64,000 nucleotides of DNA. Origin: Deltaproteobacteria bacterium. GTDB lineage: Bacteria > Desulfobacterota > Binatia > DP-6. Shown piece by piece: positions 47,023 to 57,686 of the stretch. The notes under the pieces are model-generated. The model was not told the DNA's origin, did not search any database, and saw only the letters and a list, made by a program, of their open reading frames with translations. Made by a program: the position numbers and the translations under genes. The DNA is taken from NCBI GenBank assembly GCA_005888095.1, contig VBKF01000104.1, forward strand, positions 1 to 64,000. The letters are read 5' to 3'. How positions within the stretch are numbered: position 1 is the first letter of the stretch; each line of letters starts with the position of its first letter.

Positions 47023-48600
47023 ATGGCGCGCGGAAGCCTCGCCCTCGTCCTGCACGCGCACCTGCCGTTCGTGCGCCACCCGGAGCACGAGGACTTCCTC
47101 GAGGAACGGTGGTTCTACGAGGCGGTGACCGAGACCTACGTCCCGCTGCTGGAGATGCTCGAGGGGCTCGACCGCGACCGCGTTCCCTGCCGCCTCACCA
47201 TCTCGCTCAGCCCGACCCTCCTCGGCATGCTGGCCGATCGGCTGCTGCGCGCGCGTTACCTGCGCCATCTCGACCGGCTCGTCGAGCTGGCGGAGAAGGA
47301 AGAGCGGCGGACGCGCGGCGACGGCCAGTTCCACCGCATTGCCGAGCTGTACCTCGCCCGCTTCTACCGCGTGCGGGCGATCTTCCTCGACGAGTGGCAG
47401 CAGGATCTCGTCGCCGCCTTCCGGACCTACCAGGAGCACGGCCTGATCGACGTCATCACCTGCGCGGCGACGCACGGTTTTCTCCCGCTGCTGGCGGTGA
47501 ATCCGGCCGCCGTACGCGCCCAGGTGGAGGTGGCGGCGGCCGAGTACCGCCGCTTCTTCGGCCGCTCGGCCGAGGGCTTCTGGCTGCCCGAATGCGCCTA
47601 CGAACCCGGCCTCGATGCCGAGCTCGCGCGCGCCGGATTCCGCTACTTCTTCGTCGACACCCACGGCATCGCGCATGCCAGTCCCCGCCCGGTCTACGGC
47701 GTGTACGCGCCGATCGCGTGCGACTCCGGCGTGGCCGCCTTCGGTCGCGACCCCGACAGCTCCAAGCAGGTGTGGAGCGCCGAGGAAGGCTATCCGGGCG
47801 ACTTCTGGTATCGCGATTTCTATCGCGACATCGGCTTCGACCTCGACTACGAGTACGTGCGCCCCTACCTGCCCCCTACCGGCCAGCGCATTCACACCGG
47901 CCTCAAGTATCACCGCATCACGGGCAAGACGGATCAGAAGGAGCCGTACGACCCCGAGCGGGCCCGGGTCCGTGCCCAGGCCCACGCCGAACACTTCGTC
48001 GACACCCGGATCGGGCAGGTGGACTGGCTGGCGCGCCACATGGAGCGTCCCCCCATCATCGTCTGCCCCTATGACGCCGAGCTGTTCGGCCACTGGTGGT
48101 TCGAAGGACCGCTGTGGCTCGGGCTGGTCCTGCGGCGGCTCGCCGGGACGCCTGACCTCGAGGCGGTGACGCCCGGCGACGACCTGACGCGCCACCCGAC
48201 CCTCCAGCGCGCCACGCCGGCCGCGTCGACGTGGGGCTGGAAGGGCTACAACGAGGTCTGGCTCTCCGGCCAGAACGACTGGATCTACCGCCACCTGCAC
48301 GCCAGCGCCGACCGGCTGCACGCGCTCTGCCGGCGCTACCCGAGCGCCGACGAGCGGACGCGGCGCGCGCTCAGCCAGGCGCTGCGGGAGCTGCTGCTCG
48401 GGCAGGCGAGCGACTGGGCCTTCATGATGTCGCGCGACACGACCGTCGAGTACGCCGTGCGCCGCACGAAGGACCACCTGCTGCGCTGCCAGCGTCTGTG
48501 CGCCGAGGTCGAGCAGGGCGCCATCGACGAGCTCCGGCTCGCCGCGCTCGAGGACACCGACAACCTCTTTCCGGCGCTCGACTACCGCGTCCTCCTCTAA
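47023..48600 (+). CDS. GH57-type 1,4-alpha-glucan branching enzyme
   Basis: 525 residues, the usual length. The family signs are LVLHAHLPFVRHPE at the start, GFWLPECAYEPG with the catalytic nucleophile Glu (near residue 190), and ICPYDAELFGHWWFEGP-like VCPYDAELFGHWWFEG with the acid/base Asp (near 355), then a C-terminal domain WGWKGYNEVWLSGQNDWIYR. GH57 branching enzymes make alpha-1,6 branches in glycogen. It partners glgA at 5900. It is followed by an unknown membrane protein. ATG 47023 lacks a clear ribosome site. Confidence 0.95.
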   Translation: MARGSLALVLHAHLPFVRHPEHEDFLEERWFYEAVTETYVPLLEMLEGLDRDRVPCRLTISLSPTLLGMLADRLLRARYLRHLDRLVELAEKEERRTRGDGQFHRIAELYLARFYRVRAIFLDEWQQDLVAAFRTYQEHGLIDVITCAATHGFLPLLAVNPAAVRAQVEVAAAEYRRFFGRSAEGFWLPECAYEPGLDAELARAGFRYFFVDTHGIAHASPRPVYGVYAPIACDSGVAAFGRDPDSSKQVWSAEEGYPGDFWYRDFYRDIGFDLDYEYVRPYLPPTGQRIHTGLKYHRITGKTDQKEPYDPERARVRAQAHAEHFVDTRIGQVDWLARHMERPPIIVCPYDAELFGHWWFEGPLWLGLVLRRLAGTPDLEAVTPGDDLTRHPTLQRATPAASTWGWKGYNEVWLSGQNDWIYRHLHASADRLHALCRRYPSADERTRRALSQALRELLLGQASDWAFMMSRDTTVEYAVRRTKDHLLRCQRLCAEVEQGAIDELRLAALEDTDNLFPALDYRVLL

Positions 48601-48649: not shown

Positions 48650-49195
48650 ATGTCGACCGTCCTCGTCGCGCTCGTGCTGCTCCCGGTGGCCGTCGTGCTC
48701 GTCGTCGGTCTGGTCGCGCTGCTCGCGCGTCCGCTCGTGGCCCCGGCCGTCGCGGGGCTCGAGCGCGCGCGCTTCCGGCGCTGTCTCGCGCATGCCGCCC
48801 GTGGCGACGCCCATTTGAAGGCGCAACAGCTGCCCGCCGCGCTGAGCGCCTTCGAGGCTGCTTTCTGCCTGATCACCGTGCGTGCCGATCCGCGGCTGCC
48901 CGAGCTGATCGCCCGCCATCACACGGGCCTCCTCTCGCGCCTGCTCTCCGTGGCCGACGATCTCCCCCAGCATGGCGTGCGACTCCTCGCCCTCGCCAAG
49001 GTCGACCGGCTCCTCGAGCGCCGCCGCGAGATGCAGCGCGCGTACCTCCAGCTCCAGACGCGTCCGTTGCGGGACGCGCGGCGGCTGCAGCTGGAGCGCG
49101 AGCTGCATCGCAACTCACGTGCCGCCCGCGCTGCCGTGCGCGAGCTGGTCGCCGACCTCCAGCTGCTCTCGGGTCGCAAGGTCGCCTATCAGTGA
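48650..49195 (+). CDS. Hypothetical membrane-anchored helical protein
   Basis: 181 residues. One long N-terminal membrane helix (VLVALVLLPVAVVLVVGLVALLA) and a cytoplasmic-type helical domain that looks TPR-like: DAHLKAQQLPAALSAFEAAF, RLLALAKVDRLLERRREMQ and LERELHRNSRAARAAVREL. No enzymatic motif. It ends with a canonical-looking terminator, so it is a single-gene unit between glycogen branching and the divergent DnaA. Function unknown. Confidence 0.7.
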   Translation: MSTVLVALVLLPVAVVLVVGLVALLARPLVAPAVAGLERARFRRCLAHAARGDAHLKAQQLPAALSAFEAAFCLITVRADPRLPELIARHHTGLLSRLLSVADDLPQHGVRLLALAKVDRLLERRREMQRAYLQLQTRPLRDARRLQLERELHRNSRAARAAVRELVADLQLLSGRKVAYQ

Positions 49196-49236: not shown

Positions 49237-49462
49237 TGTAATTCCGTTGCGACTGGTCTAAGGGTCGGAGCGGTGTCGGCCCAGGCCGCGGCCGACCGAG
49301 AGCACCAAGAACGTCCCGGCTCGGCCGGGACATCCTCGGAATGAATGGCGCGCACGCAAGAGTGGGGTCCCCACCCGACGTGCGTCCGCCGCATCGGGGC
49401 GGGACGGCGATGGGTCACCGGAAGTTGAAAGCGGCGTCTTCCCGAGACGATGCACCGCTCCT

Positions 49463-49474
49463 CCACAGCTGTGG
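49463..49474. promoter_or_regulatory. Palindrome upstream of the DnaA-like gene
   Basis: CCACAGCTGTGG is a perfect 12-base palindrome 12 bases before ATG 49487. The left arm reads TCCTCCACA, matching the DnaA-box consensus TTATCCACA at 7/9 positions. It could be an autoregulatory site. No consensus DnaA box or AT-rich unwinding region is in the 49237-49486 spacer, which otherwise shows nothing else. Confidence 0.35.
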
Positions 49475-49486
49475 GCGTCGCCACGC

Positions 49487-50785
49487 ATGAGCAGCACAGC
49501 GGTCATGACGGACCCGGCGACGATGTGGGCGCAGGCGTGTGAGACCGTGCGCGCTCGCGTTGGCGACCGGAACTTCGCCGCGTGGATCGTGCCGCTGCGC
49601 TGCACCTGGCTCGAAGACGAGATCACCCTCGAGGCGCCCGACCGCCTGACGCGCGAGCTCGTGGCACGACACTTCGCCGGGGTGATCGCCGACGCGGTCG
49701 CCGCCGTCGCCGGCCACCGGTGTTCGCTTCGACTCGATCTGCCGGCGCCGCCACCGTCGCTGCCGATCCGGGCGACGCCGCCGCTGCCCGATCACACCTT
49801 CGACACGTTCGTGGTCGGGGAGAGCAACACGCGTGCCTTCGACGCGGCCCGCGCGCTCGCCCGGCAGGAGACCGCGGCGCCCGTCTTCCTCCACGGGCCG
49901 GCAGGCGTCGGGAAGACACACCTCCTCCACGCGATCGCGCACGCACTCGAGGCCCGGAGACTCGCGGTGGCCTGCCTGCCGGCGGCGAGGCTGATCGAGG
50001 AGCTGGTCGCCGCCATCGGCGAGCATCGCCAGGAGGCCTTCTGGCGGGAGCTGCGGGCGCTCGACGTCCTCCTGCTCGATGACGTCCACTCGCTCGCCGG
50101 CCGGGAGCAGATGCAGGAGGAGCTGATCGACGGGCTCGCGGCGTGGGCCGCGGACGGGCGTCCCCTGGCGCTCACGTCGGATCGGGCGCCCGATGAGATG
50201 CCCGAGTTCGCGGCACGGGTCCGCGAAGGCTTCCGGAACGGGGTGATCGCCGGCATCGAACCGCCCGAGCCACGGCTCTGCCTCGAGCTGGTGCACTACA
50301 AGGCTCGAGCGCTCGGGCTCGTCCTCGACGCGGGACTCGCCGCCAGGCTCGCCGCCACCGTCTCCGGCAACGTGCGCCGGCTCGAAGGCGCGCTCCGCAG
50401 CCTGCTGGCCCACGCGCATCTGCGCGGTCGTGCGATCGACGCGGCGCTGGCGCTCGAGATCCTCCCTGCCCTCCAGCGGATCCCCGCCGCGCCCCCCGCC
50501 CTCGATCGGATCGTCGAGGCGACGGCGCGCGCCTTCGGCGTGGCAGCGCGCAGCCTCCGTGGACGCAGCCGCCGGCGGGAACTCGTACTCCCGCGGCACG
50601 TCGCGATGTACCTGGCGCGGAAGCTCTGCCAGTGGTCGGCCGCCGAGCTCGCCCGGGAATTCGGGCGCAATCACACGACCGTCCTGAACGGGTGCCGGTC
50701 GGTCGCGGCCAAGCTCGGGGTGGATCGTAAGCTCGCCGCCCTCCTCGCCGAGATCGAGCGCCGCCTCGCCAGTGACCGGCTCTGA
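49487..50785 (+). CDS. Divergent DnaA-family protein lacking the arginine finger
   Basis: 432 residues with DnaA domain I (about 5-75), a very short linker and the AAA+ domain: [20 protein letters not shown], Walker [15 protein letters not shown], Walker [19 protein letters not shown], sensor 2 [14 protein letters not shown]. Domain IV is [13 protein letters not shown] and [16 protein letters not shown] gapless alignment puts Gly248 ([10 protein letters not shown]) where E. coli has the Arg285 finger (DRLKSRFGWG), and Asn where Asp433 contacts DNA. Typical DnaA lies beside dnaN; here neighbours are a hypothetical gene and a GlgC-like gene. It may be a DnaA paralogue or an unusual sole initiator. 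No clear ribosome site; ATG 49505 is an alternative start. Confidence 0.85.
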
Positions 50786-50808: not shown

Positions 50809-52014
50809 ATGGACGGACGGCTGCTCGGGGTCGTGGTGGCGGGGGGTGGGAGCGCCAGTCTCGATCCTCTCGTCTCACCCGGCGACGCGGCGCTCACGCC
50901 GTTCGCCGGCCAGTACCGCTTCATCGACTTCGCCCTCGCCACGCTCGCGAACTCGGGCGTCCGCGACGTGTGCGTGTTCGCGCCGGTGACGGACGCGGCG
51001 CTCGGCGCACACGTGGTGCGCGCGGGCGGCGCGGCAGCAGCGGAGCGCCGCGCCCTCCGGTCGCTGCCCGGCATGCAGGCGACGGGTACGCCCGCCCGGC
51101 GCCTCGTCGAGGCGCTCCAGGCGTGCCGCGATCTCCTCGGCGCTCACCGGCCGGACGCGATCGTCGTGCTGTCGGCCGACCACATCCTGCAGCTCGACCT
51201 GCGGCCGCTGGCCGCGGCGCATGCCGCGTTCGGGGCCGACGTGACGCTCGTCGCGTTGCCGCTGCCTGCGAGCGAGGCCCCGGGCCGCGCCGTGCTACGG
51301 ATCGGCGGCGACGGCCGGGTCCGTCACGCCGAGCGTGCGCCCATCGCTCCCGCGCCGTCGACCGCAACGGGCGGCTTCGCGCTCGGCTGGGCCGGCGACT
51401 TCATCGTCCGCGCCGACGCCCTTCCCGCCGTCCTGGCTGCGCTTGCGCCGGACGACGTGGGCGACGAGGCGCGGTTCCTCGCAGCCCTCGCCGCTCGCCT
51501 CCGGATGACGGCCTACGACCTGCTCGACCGCCACCTCCCCGGAGCGTCACAGGGCGCGTACTGGCCCGAGCCCATCACGCTCGAAGCGTACTACGACGCG
51601 CAGATGAACCTGTGCACGCCGCGGCCATTCCTCGACCTCTACAACCCGGCGTGGCCCGTGCGCGCCGCCGCTGCGGGACTCGCGCCCGCGAAGGTCGTGG
51701 CGGACAGCGCCGGCCGTGCCGGGCAGGCGCTCAACTCGCTGGTCTCCGAGGGCTCGGTGATCCGCGGCGGCCTCGTCGTCAACTCGGTCCTCGGCCACGG
51801 CGTCGTCGTCGAGGGCGGCGCAGAGGTCGAGGACAGCGTGCTGCTCGACGGCTGCCGCATCGGCCGCGGCGCGCTCGTCCGCCGCGCGCTCGTGGGACCT
51901 GGCGCGGTGATCGCGGAGGGGGAGGAGATCGGCTACGGGGCGGCGCCGAACGCCCCGGGCCGCCTCGCGCCCTCGGGGCTGACGCTCGTGGTCGCGCCGC
52001 CAGCGTGCGCGTGA
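50809..52014 (+). CDS. GlgC/GlgD-like protein with degraded active site
   Basis: 401 residues, aligned over its length to ADP-glucose pyrophosphorylase: [58 protein letters not shown] and left-handed helix repeats [20 protein letters not shown]. Catalytic elements are lost: GGRGTRL is GGGSASL, the Lys of RAKPAV is absent (GDAALT), FVEKP is HAERA and YWRDVGT is YWPEPIT. This pattern resembles GlgD, the non-catalytic regulatory partner of GlgC in Firmicutes, though no GlgC is in the window. Good ribosome site (GAAGGAGG). It is 23 bases after the DnaA-like gene. Confidence 0.85.
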
Positions 52015-52124: not shown

Positions 52125-55100
52125 ATGAGCTCGCCCGCCATCGAGATCCTCGGCGCCCGCGAACACAACTTGCGGGGCATCGACGTCCGCGTGCCGCTCG
52201 GGGCGTTGACCGTCATCACGGGCGTGTCGGGATCGGGGAAGTCGAGCCTCGCCTTCGACGTGCTCTACGCCGAAGGGCAGCGGCGCTACGTCGAGAGCTT
52301 CTCCACCTATGCCCGCCAGTTCCTCGATCGCATGGACAAGCCGCGTGTCGACCGCATCGACGGCATCCTGCCCGCGATCGCGATCGATCAGAGCCGCCCG
52401 GTCAAGACGTCGCGCTCGACGGTGGGCACGATGACCGAGCTGCACGACCACCTGAAGCTCCTGTTCGCCAAGGTCGGCGTTCCCCATTGCCGCAGCTGCG
52501 GCCGGATGGTCCAGCGGGACTCCGCCGAGAGCACCGCCGAAGCCCTCATCAGCGCGCACGACGGTGCCCGAGCGCTCGTCACCTTCGCGCTCACGCCGCC
52601 CGCCGCGCTCCCATGGTCCGACGTCCGCGCGGGCCTCCTCCAGGCGGGCTTCGTGCGGGCGCTCGGCCCGAACGGCATCGTGGGGCTCGAGGAGCTCGAG
52701 ACGCCACCGCTCGTCGACGGCGCGCTGACCGTGGTGCAGGACCGGCTGCGGCTGCGGGCGGCGGAGCGCGGGCGGCTGGTCGAGTCGTTCGAGCAGGCCT
52801 TCGCGCACGGGCGCGGGCGGGCGGCGGCCGTGCTGGCCGACGGTGGGGAGACCATCCGCTTCTCGACCGCGCTCGAGTGCGCCGCGTGCGGTTTCGCGGT
52901 GCGCGACCCCGTGCCCAACCTGTTCTCCTTCAACAGCCCGCTCGGCGCGTGCGAGGCTTGCCGCGGCTTCGGGCGCGTGATCGACCTGGACCTCGACCTC
53001 GTCGTCCCCGACCCCCGCCGCACGCTCGCCGCCGGCGCCCTCAAACCGTGGTCGACGAAGGCCACCGCCTGGGAGCGCGGCGAGCTCGCCAAGTTCTGCC
53101 GCCGTCGCGGCATCCCGACCGACGTGCCGTGGGGGGAGCTCGATCCTGCCCAGCGGGAGCTCGTGCTCGAAGGCGATGGCCGCGGCCACTATCCGGGCGT
53201 GCGCGGCTGGTTCCGCTGGCTCGAGGGTAGGACGTATCGCATGCACGTGCGCGTCTTCCTCTCGCGCTTCCGGAGCTACCGCCTCTGCCCCGCGTGCGCG
53301 GGCGCGCGCGTCAAGCCCGAGGCGCTCGACTTCCGCGTCGGCGGCCGGACGATCGCGGAGGTGAACCGCATGCCGATCGGAGAGGCGGCGGTGTTCTTCG
53401 GCGACCTCCGGCTGCCGTCGGCGCAGGCCGAGGCCGTCGCCGGCCTGATCCTCGCCGAGGTCCGCAGCCGCCTTCGCTACCTCGTGGAGGCGGGGCTCGA
53501 GTACCTGACGCTCGACCGGCAGTCGCGCACGCTCTCGGGCGGGGAGCTCGAGCGCGTCGACCTGACCACCGCCATCGGCTCGTCGCTGGTGAACACGCTC
53601 TACGTCCTCGACGAGCCCTCGATCGGGCTGCACGCGCGCGATACGGAGCGTCTCGTCCGTACCCTGCACCGGCTGCGCGACCAGGGGAACGCCGTGGTCG
53701 TCGTCGAGCACGACCCCGCGATCATCCGCGCCGCCGATCACGCGATCGACCTCGGCCCCGGCGCGGGCGAGCGCGGAGGCGACCTCATCTTCGCGGGCCC
53801 GCCCGCCGAGCTGGCCGGCGCGCGCGCCTCGGTCACGGGCGCCTTCCTCGGCGGGCGGCGCGAGATTCCCGTGCCCCGCAAGCGGCGGCGGCCGCTCCCG
53901 CATCTCAGCCTCCGCGTGCGCGGCGCGTCGGCCAACAACCTCGAGGACCTCGATGTCGACGTCCCGCTCGGCTGCTTCGTCGCGGTGACCGGCGTTTCGG
54001 GCTCCGGCAAGTCGACGCTGGTCGAGGAGGTCCTCTACCGCGGCCTCAAGAAGCGCCGCGGGGAGCCGGTCGGCATCCCGGGTGCGTGCCGCGAGATCAG
54101 CGGCGCCGAGCGCATCGCCGACGTCGTGCTCGTCGACCAGGCGCCCATCGGCTCGACGCCGCGGGCGAATCCGGTCACCTACCTGCGCGCCTTCGACCTG
54201 ATCCGGACCTGCTTCGCGGCGACCGAGGCGGCGCGCCTGCGCGGCTACACGGCGGCGACGTTCTCCTTCAACGTCCCCGGCGGGCGCTGCGAGACGTGCA
54301 CCGGCCAGGGCTTCGAGAAGGTCGAGATGCAGTTCCTCTCCGACGTTTACGTCCCCTGCGCGGAGTGCGGCGGAGCGCGCTTCGGGCCCGAGGTGCTGGA
54401 GGTGTGCTCGCACGGGCGCAACATCCGCGAGGTCCTCGACCTCACCGTCGCCCAGGCCGTCGAGGTCTTCGCCGACGTCCCCGACATCGCCCGGCGCCTC
54501 CGCCCCCTGGTCGACGTCGGGCTCGACTACCTGCGGCTCGGCCAGCCGCTGTCGACGCTCTCGGGCGGCGAGGCCCAGCGCGTGAAGCTCGCCGCGCATC
54601 TCGGGCGGGAGGGCAAGGCGCACACGCTCTTCATCTTCGACGAGCCGACCACCGGGCTGCACCTCGCCGACATCGAGCGGCTGCTCGGCTGCTTCGCGCG
54701 GCTCGTCGAGCGCGGCCACTCGCTCATCGTGATCGAGCACAACCTCGAGGTGGTGAAGTGCGCCGACTGGGTGATCGACCTCGGACCCGAGGGCGGCGAC
54801 GCCGGCGGCCGCCTGGTCGCCGCCGGGCCGCCGGAGGCGATCGCGGGCACGCCCGGCTCGCACACCGGCCGCTACCTGGCCGAGGTCCTCGGCGACGGCC
54901 GGGGGGCGCGGGCCGCGTTCGCCACCGAGGTGCACGACGCGCCGGCGGCGGGCGGCGGAAACGGCTGCATCCGTATCGTCGGCGCCCGCGAGCACAACCT
55001 GAAGGACGTGAGCCTCGAGCTGCCGCGCGACCGCCTGATCGTGATGACCGGGCTTTCCGGCTCGGGCAAGTCCTCGCTCGCCTTCGACGTCCTCTACGCC

Positions 55101-57686
55101 GAGGGGCAGCGCCGGTACATCGACAGCCTGTCGGCCTACGCGCGCCAGTTCCTGCACGTCATGGCGAAGCCCGACGTCGACCTGCTGCTCGGTCTGCCTC
55201 CCACGGTGGCGATCGAGCAGCGGCTGTCCCGCGGCGGGCGGAACTCCACGGTCGCCACGGTCACCGAGGTGGCGCACTACCTCCGGCTCCTGTTCGCCAA
55301 GCTCGGCGTGCAGCACTGTCCCGCGTGCGACGCCCCCATCCGCCCGCAGACGCGACGGCAGATCCTGGAGCGCCTGCGGGCCGAGTTCGGCGGCGCGCGC
55401 CTCACGCTGCTGGCGCCCGTCGTGCGCGGCCGGAAGGGCTATCACAAGGAAGTCCTCATCGGGGCACGCAAGCTCCGGCTCAAGGAAGCGCGCATCGACG
55501 GCCGGCGGCTGGCGCTCGCCCAGGTGCCGCTGCTCGACCGCTATCGCGAGCACGACATCGACCTCGTGGTGGCCACGCTGGCGGCGGACGCGGCGGCGTT
55601 CGAGGAGTCGCTCGACCGGGCGCTCCGCCTGGGCGGCGGTACCGTGGTCGCGCTCGCCGATGGGACCGAGCGCCTGTACTCCGAGCGGCTCTTCTGCCCC
55701 GCCTGCGACACGGGCTTTCCGCCCCTCGACCCGCGGCTCTTCTCGTTCAACAGCCGCCAGGGCGCCTGTCCCGCCTGCGACGGCGCCGGCGTGCGCGAGG
55801 AGCTCGACCCGGCGGCGATGCTCGACCAGCGCCGCTCCCTCGAGGGCGGCGCCCTCCTCCCCCTCGAGCGCCCCGAGCTGCGCGCCGAGAAGCGACGCCT
55901 CCTCCGCACGCTCGCCGCCGCGGGCGTACCGCTCGACCGCCCGGTCGCCAAGCTCGGCGCCCGCCAGCGCCGCGCGATCCTCGACGGCAACGATCGGGCT
56001 CTCGCCGTCCTCCGCCAGCGCCTCGAGGCGGGCGACGGCGGCGACCTCGGCGCCTTCACGACCGAGCGGCCGTGCGAGGCCTGCGGCGGCGAGCGGCTGA
56101 ACCCGCGCGCGCGGGCCGTCCGCTTGAACGGCCACCGGATCGCGGAGTTCACGCGCCTGGCCGTCACCGACGCCGAACGCGCGGTGCGCGCGCTGCGTTT
56201 CGGCACCCGCGACGCGGCGATCGCCGAGGGCGCACTCAAGGAGATCCTCCCGCGTCTCGGCTTCCTCGGCCGGGTGGGGCTCGGCTACCTGACGCTCGAC
56301 CGGCGCGCCGACACGCTCTCGGGCGGCGAGGCGCAGCGCATCCGCCTGGCGGCGCAGCTCGGGTCGAACCTGCGCGGCGTCTGCTACATCCTGGACGAGC
56401 CGACGATCGGCCTCCACCCGCGCGACGGGAGCATGCTCCTCGACACTCTCGAGACGCTCCGCGCCCGCGGCAACACCGTGATCGTCGTCGAGCACGACGA
56501 GGCGACGATCCGGCGCGCCGATCTGGTCGTCGACCTCGGCCCGGGGGCGGGCGTGCACGGCGGCCGGGTGGTGGCCGTGGCGCCCCCCGCGACACTGGCC
56601 GCCATGCCGGACTCGCCGACCGGCCGCTATCTCGCGGCGGCACACCCGCGCCTGGGCCCCGCCCGCTCGCTCGACGGCCTGGCACGCCTCACGGTGCACG
56701 GCGCTTCCCAGCACAACCTCAAGGCCATCGACGTCAGCGTGCCGCTCGGCGCCTGGACCTGCGTGACCGGCGTCTCCGGCTCCGGGAAGTCGACGCTCGT
56801 GCGCGACGTCCTGTATGCGGGCGTGCGCCGCGTCCTCGGCCTCCAGGCCGGCAGCGTCGGCGCCCACCGCGCCCTCACCGGCGTCGAGCACCTGGCACGC
56901 GCCGTCGAGGTGGACCAGAGCCCCATCGGGCGGACGCCGCGCTCGACGCCGGCCTCCTACATCGGCTTCTTCGACGACATCCGGCGCCTCTTCGCCATGG
57001 TTCCCGAGGCGCGCCTGCGCGGCTACGGCGCCGGGCGGTTCTCGTTCAACGTCGCCGGCGGGCGGTGCGACGCGTGCGCCGGCCAGGGCCGGCTACGCAT
57101 GGAGATGAGCTTCCTGCCCGACGTGTGGGTGGACTGCGAGGCCTGCGGCGGCCGGCGCTTCACGGAGGAGACGCTCGCCATCCGCTACGGCGGCCGCTCG
57201 ATCGCCGACGTGCTCGCGATGACGGTCGAGGAGGCGGCGGATTTCTTCGCCCCGCACCCGGGCGTGGCCCGGAGCCTCAGGCTGCTCTGCGACATCGGCC
57301 TCGGCTACCTGACGCTCGGCCAGCCGAGCCACACGCTCTCGGGGGGCGAGGCGCAGCGCGTGAAGCTCGCCTTCGAGCTCGCCAAGGAATCGCGCGGCCG
57401 GACGCTCTACGTGCTCGACGAGCCCACGACGGGCCTCCACTTCGCGGACACCGACCGACTGATCGCGGTGCTCCACCGCCTGGTCGAGCGCGGCCACACC
57501 GTGATCACGATCGAGCACAACCTCGACATCGTGAAGGAGGCCGACTGGATCGTCGACCTCGGACCCGAGGGCGGCGCCGCGGGCGGGTACGTGGTCGCCT
57601 CCGGCCCGCCTGCCGCGGTCGCCCGGGTGAGCGCCTCGCACACCGCGCGCTGCTTGCGCCGCTTCCTCGCCTCGCCGGCCGCCTAA
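52125..57686 (+). CDS. uvrA: Tandem-fused (dimeric-form) UvrA
   Basis: 1853 residues, about twice UvrA, made of two complete UvrA units. Unit 1 (1 to about 925) has Walker [16 protein letters not shown], signature [12 protein letters not shown] (Leu instead of the usual Ala-Gln), a second Walker [16 protein letters not shown] and zinc module CETCTGQG...CAECGG. Unit 2 (about 947-1853) starts [17 protein letters not shown] and repeats the order with [42 protein letters not shown] and CDACAGQG...CEACGG. The four ATPase sites would form a UvrA dimer within one chain. It recognises DNA damage and loads UvrB. Such fusions are known in some bacteria. A single-unit uvrA could exist elsewhere. Confidence 0.95.

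Follow-up and report, generated by a model that had tools for sequence, protein, structure and literature searches.

The dnaA3 Locus

The window, which is the whole stretch of 64,000 nucleotides analysed here, carries a third paralogue of dnaA (dnaA3), an inverted pair of DnaA-box cores in the leader of this gene, and a set of neighboring genes (Table 1), in the order DUF4912, GH57 branching enzyme, 181-aa protein, dnaA3, glgC-like gene, and double-length uvrA. The left side of the locus is common to all five of the genomes in which dnaA3 is found, and uvrA lies to the right wherever the contig reaches. The glgC-like gene is found beside dnaA3 in four of these five genomes, and is missing in G004. 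This gene falls far short of both the GlgC and GlgD cut-offs, its N-terminal sugar-nucleotide motifs are altered, and its rate of evolution matches that of dnaA3. The gene may represent a non-catalytic relative of GlgC, and is perhaps co-transcribed with dnaA3.

Table 1. Features of the dnaA3 locus, with positions in the window.
Feature	Positions	Strand	Evidence
GH57 1,4-alpha-glucan branching enzyme, conserved synteny marker	47023..48600	+	
181-aa protein, no Pfam match, left neighbor of dnaA3 in 5/5 genomes	48650..49195	+	
Two DnaA-box cores in inverted orientation, TCCACAGCTGTGGG, 11 bp upstream of the ATG at 49487	49462..49475	.	Leader comparison, pattern search
dnaA3, third DnaA paralogue, 432 aa	49487..50785	+	ORF, Pfam, alignment, orthologues
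Domain I, Pfam DnaA_N, residues 12-72	49520..49702	+	Pfam match
AAA+ domain III: Walker A (137-145), Walker B LLLDD (195-199), sensor 2 Arg297	49790..50461	+	Pfam, alignment
Gly248 codon GGC, arginine-finger position (E. coli Arg285)	50228..50230	+	Alignment
Domain IV, DNA-binding HTH, Pfam Bac_DnaA_C, residues 340-406	50504..50704	+	Pfam match
Asn395 codon AAT, E. coli Asp433 position	50669..50671	+	Alignment
glgC-like gene, 23 bp downstream of dnaA3	50809..52014	+	
Double-length UvrA, 1853 aa, conserved right-hand synteny marker	52125..57686	+	

The initial annotation described a DnaA homologue in which all of the DnaA domains are present, and the three folded domains do, in fact, exceed the Pfam cut-offs for PF11638 (DnaA_N), PF00308 (Bac_DnaA, the AAA+ domain, with 130 bits versus a cut-off of 23), and PF08299 (Bac_DnaA_C). 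An alternative in-frame ATG at position 49505 is better conserved than that at 49487. The residues were numbered by aligning DnaA3 with the DnaA of E. coli MG1655, and this alignment agrees with the original description in the retention of Walker A, Walker B, and sensor 2 (Arg334), and in the replacement of both Arg285 (by Gly248) and Asp433 (by Asn395). Sensor 1 and the box VII Arg281 are also kept. The protein thus described is of ordinary fold, with an unusual interface.

On the TIGR00362 DnaA equivalog model, DnaA3 scores 302.4 bits, which is below the cut-off of 343.9, whereas the other two DnaA proteins of the same genome, DnaA1 (490.0) and DnaA2 (434.2), are above it. The score on the Hda model (TIGR03420) is only 89.9 bits, against a cut-off of 194.8, and DnaA3, unlike Hda, has a domain IV. 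A sequencing error behind Gly248 was ruled out, given that the same column is Gly in genome G001 and Glu in G002. The arginine two residues past this position (Arg250) was considered as a substitute finger, and was not adopted, as it is present in G001, but not in G002. A structure prediction of DnaA3 from a two-row alignment returned a poor model (mean pLDDT of 57), which was set aside.

The Other DnaA Genes of the Genome

The genome that contains the window (G000) comprises 5.46 Mb in 271 contigs, is listed as 100% complete, and has three Bac_DnaA matches, that is, DnaA1, DnaA2, and DnaA3. The dnaA1 gene is found on another contig (C116), where it is followed by dnaN, gyrB, and gyrA, and, as the initial annotation had stated, dnaA3 is not beside dnaN. 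The arginine finger of DnaA1 is intact (RNRF) and every motif is present, as in the DnaA1 proteins of all the relatives examined, in which Arg285 is likewise found. In DnaA2 (L002/L005:6968-8299, contig C177 of G000), the arginine finger is present and the box VII Arg281 is missing. The search for a second dnaA with Arg285, which the initial annotation had proposed as a check, thus recovered two finger-bearing genes in the same genome.

DnaA2 is a paralogue found throughout the family, which lacks the box VII Arg281 and keeps the finger in all seven of the genomes that represent it. Its most conserved part is domain IV.

Distribution and Descent of DnaA3

Orthologues of DnaA3 are found in two congeners, at 80% and 72% identity, and in two further genera of the family, at 58% and 52%; one of these orthologues sits on VBLA01000067.1. 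When 145 genomes of the class were searched with the DnaA3 profile, the five genomes with DnaA3 scored at least 725 bits, and none of the others exceeded 331. No DnaA3 was recovered beyond G000 in a sample of 395 genomes of the phylum, from which the other four DnaA3 genomes are absent.

The five DnaA3 proteins form a single clade in the maximum-likelihood tree (support 100/100), the exact branching of which among the other DnaA groups is poorly supported. The close homologues of DnaA3 lie away from dnaN, and each of the genomes that contain them also has finger-bearing DnaA proteins, so that the altered residue is not a variant of a sole initiator.

In two sister genera, represented by G003 and G005, the locus is present without dnaA3: the 181-aa protein is followed directly by uvrA in G003, and by the glgC-like gene and uvrA in G005. 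This pattern implies one of two histories: a single acquisition of dnaA3 by part of the family, or its loss on the sister branch.

Contacts Kept and Lost at the Subunit Interface

The residues of the ATP site (K178, D235, D236, R281, and R334) do not vary among the five DnaA3 proteins. In E. coli, functional contacts between subunits require Arg285, Arg227, Leu290, and Arg281 (PMC5742627), while in B. subtilis strand separation fails in the R264A variant of the finger, and growth is severely impaired by alanine substitution of N187, R202, or E228 (PMC10721633). These positions were compared with those of 44 other DnaA proteins of the class, with two very divergent sequences being left out. At the positions of Arg285, Arg227, Leu290, and Glu249 (B. 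subtilis E228), the named residue is found in 44/44 of the other proteins, versus G,G,E,R,R, then R,R,R,A,T, then V,T,V,E,V, and finally E,Q,H,R,R in the five DnaA3. At the B. subtilis R202 position, all five have W, where the others have K, R, or H, and the N187 position reads E,E,E,S,A. In the DnaA3 of the window, the N187, R202, and E228 positions are occupied by E, W, and E, that is, two of the three single-strand-capture residues are altered. Erosion of the contacts used in filament growth and in single-strand capture is seen in each of the five DnaA3 proteins.

Loss of the finger is confined to the genus of the window (Gly, Gly, and Glu), and the DnaA3 proteins of G004 and G006 retain Arg285 and have lost Arg227. 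Two invariant residues, Trp186 and Arg298, are specific to the clade. In domain I, the positions of Glu21 and Phe46 are changed, although Phe46 is also missing from DnaA1.

In the DNA-binding domain, D433 makes contact with the DnaA box at its seventh base (PMC8235120), and the recognition residues D433, H434, and T435 drift within the genus, as NHT, NPA, and NYT. The Asn at Asp433 is undiagnostic on its own, because it is shared by three other DnaA proteins of the class that have the finger.

Selection on dnaA3

The dN/dS values between congeners, which are pairwise counting estimates and are rough at the appreciable synonymous divergence involved, are 0.22-0.26 for dnaA3, 0.23-0.28 for dnaA2, and 0.11 for dnaA1. 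Those of the neighboring genes tested range from 0.04 to 0.14, except for the glgC-like gene (0.25-0.33). By these estimates, dnaA3 is under purifying selection. Within DnaA3, domain III is the tightest (0.19-0.22) and domain IV the loosest (0.33-0.37), while in DnaA2 the tightest is domain IV (0.16-0.17). The domain-wise values thus indicate that DnaA3 is a constrained, faster-evolving protein, in which the ATPase domain would matter more than the exact recognition of the DNA.

The Probable Leader Operator

The dnaA3 leader, of approximately 290 bp, has diverged between genera apart from a single block around TCCACAGCTGTGG, and the inverted pair of box cores found here is probably an operator bound by DnaA, as predicted from its sequence. 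The exact pattern TCCACAGSTGTGG has a single site in the 5.46-Mb genome, at position 49462. When a longer pattern is searched with one mismatch, the sole other site in G000 lies directly before dnaA1, and a comparable site is found before dnaA1 in G002. The leader of dnaA2 carries TCCAGAGCTGTGGA, and the TCCACAGCTGTGG of dnaA3 differs from the versions in the dnaA1 and dnaA2 leaders by one or two bases.

Most of the dnaA genes of the class carry a palindrome of this kind, some of them as TTATCCACAGCTGTGGATAA, at a matching distance of approximately 430-560 bp before the Walker A codon (L009 and L010, for example), whereas the best match in shuffled leaders usually has 3-5 mismatches. The dnaA3 gene therefore retains an ancestral element of the dnaA leader. 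In E. coli, DnaA controls the transcription of its own gene (PMC5742627), and the retained element points, by analogy, to the control of dnaA3 by a DnaA protein.

No cluster of DnaA boxes was found near dnaA3, with one TCCACA core within 4.5 kb, and an origin beside the gene was rejected on the basis of this single core.

Comparison with Known DnaA Systems

DnaA3 resembles the DnaA initiator (TIGR00362) in its domain order (I-III-IV), Walker A and B, sensors 1 and 2, box VII Arg281, helix-turn-helix, and the DnaA boxes of the leader. It differs in the Gly at the finger, the altered Leu290, single-strand-capture, and Asp433 positions, a score under the equivalog cut-off, and a location away from dnaN. 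The DnaA2 of the same family is also full-length, its gene has a comparable operator in the leader, and its overall evolutionary rate is similar, but it keeps the finger, is missing Arg281, and has its tightest constraint on domain IV, which is the reverse of the pattern in DnaA3.

Hda is, like DnaA3, an AAA+ paralogue of the DnaA family, and acts on DnaA. It has no domain IV and works through its own arginine finger and its binding of the clamp, whereas DnaA3 has domain IV, lacks the finger, and is far under the Hda cut-off. Other bacteria also have second DnaA copies, as in the Chlamydiales, with two dnaA genes (PMC2878342), and these resemble dnaA3 in being full-length extra copies in the same chromosome; G000 differs in having three copies, one of them fingerless. 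The closest counterparts in the missing residue are the laboratory variants R285A of E. coli and R264A of B. subtilis, in which the ATP pocket is intact and the function of the DnaA oligomer is crippled (PMC5742627, PMC10721633). Those variants were engineered, whereas the loss in DnaA3 is natural, and is found in a spare copy with further changes. The literature searched, the coverage of which was partial, yielded no description of a DnaA paralogue without the finger.

The Possible Role of DnaA3

DnaA3 is very probably a regulatory paralogue, rather than an initiator, and the best reading of the data is that of an ATP-binding protein which would be co-regulated with DnaA, and would either limit the DnaA filaments or regulate genes. 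Of the functions suggested in the initial annotation, that of a regulator is the most plausible. The best overall explanation, in which DnaA3 is a regulatory, non-initiator DnaA restricted to the family, and may limit the DnaA1 filament, can be given about an even chance.

The way in which DnaA3 might do so can be outlined as follows. The leader operator would be bound by DnaA or DnaA3, so that the dose of DnaA3 tracks that of DnaA. DnaA3 would bind ATP, and its ATP face would still be open to the arginine finger of DnaA1, if the two proteins do interact, as is assumed here. Without a finger for the next subunit, and presumably unable to hold single strands, DnaA3 would end or poison the DnaA1 filament between the DnaA boxes and the melting region, which would, in turn, delay or limit initiation. 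In B. subtilis, the DnaA fingers are directed from the boxes to the single-stranded region (PMC10721633), and it is this direction of growth that a subunit lacking the finger would block. This specific filament-ending mechanism is tentative, with somewhat less than an even chance, and is more doubtful than the regulatory role itself. It is weakened by the DnaA3 of G004 and G006, in which Arg285 is retained, given that the loss of the finger cannot have been the original function of the clade. The changes at Glu21 and Phe46 in domain I also count against it.

A narrower version, in which the fingerless DnaA is a dedicated filament terminator, that is, a dominant-negative subunit selected to limit the spread of the filament into the melting region, is rather unlikely.

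The main rival to the filament-ending mechanism is a transcriptional role, in which DnaA3 would regulate its own operon (the glgC-like gene, and perhaps uvrA), as well as other genes, and leave the firing of the origin untouched. This alternative, which is possible, if somewhat unlikely, is favored by the inverted-box operator, unique in the genome, before dnaA3, the close spacing of the glgC-like gene, a domain IV above the Pfam cut-off, and the precedent of autoregulation in E. coli (PMC5742627). Domain IV is, however, the least constrained part of the protein (0.33-0.37), its D433, H434, and T435 recognition residues drift within the genus, and the operator also precedes dnaA1 and dnaA2, and is not, then, specific to DnaA3.

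It is improbable that DnaA3 is merely a decaying duplicate, of little function and heading for loss, even though it evolves faster than most of its neighbors, has lost otherwise invariant residues here and there, and is not found in G003 or G005. The reading frame is open in all five genomes, from three genera, with a dN/dS far under 1. The ATP site, Trp186, and Arg298 are invariant across the clade, and the operator was retained as the leader around it diverged.

The idea that DnaA3 might be a second initiator, which would serve another origin or replicon, such as an integrated plasmid or a secondary chromosomal origin, is very improbable, despite the full-length DnaA architecture and the box pair in the leader. 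The surroundings lack a cluster of boxes, the neighbors are chromosomal genes of ordinary metabolism, in vertical synteny, none of those scanned being a plasmid gene, and the residues needed for filament growth and for holding single strands are changed across the whole of the DnaA3 clade. The suggestion that the lineage starts replication in another way, and dispenses with the finger, derives solely from the missing finger of this one protein, and is not supported, given that a normal DnaA1 beside dnaN, in the dnaA-dnaN-gyrB-gyrA order, makes it unnecessary.

If DnaA3 does block filaments, R285A would have a counterpart in nature, and initiation a new type of brake; as a filament terminator, DnaA3 would regulate initiation negatively and would differ from Hda, SeqA, datA, Soj, and YabA. 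One textbook initiator and two diverging copies, one without the box VII Arg281 and one losing the finger, and all three with a box pair in the leader, represent natural variants of the DnaA subunit interface.

Additional DnaA Copies in the Class

Additional copies of dnaA are frequent in the class: roughly one in four of the 145 genomes has at least two DnaA matches at an E-value of 1e-20. Two very divergent proteins have the DnaA ATPase domain: one (L039, on contig C91 of G001) is an open frame of 857 aa with no domain IV match, and the other (L041, on contig C6 of G011) has 521 aa, with a domain IV and no recognizable finger. The second DnaA copies L053, L054, and L055, from two other families (f4 and f10), have Asn at the Asp433 position and keep the finger.
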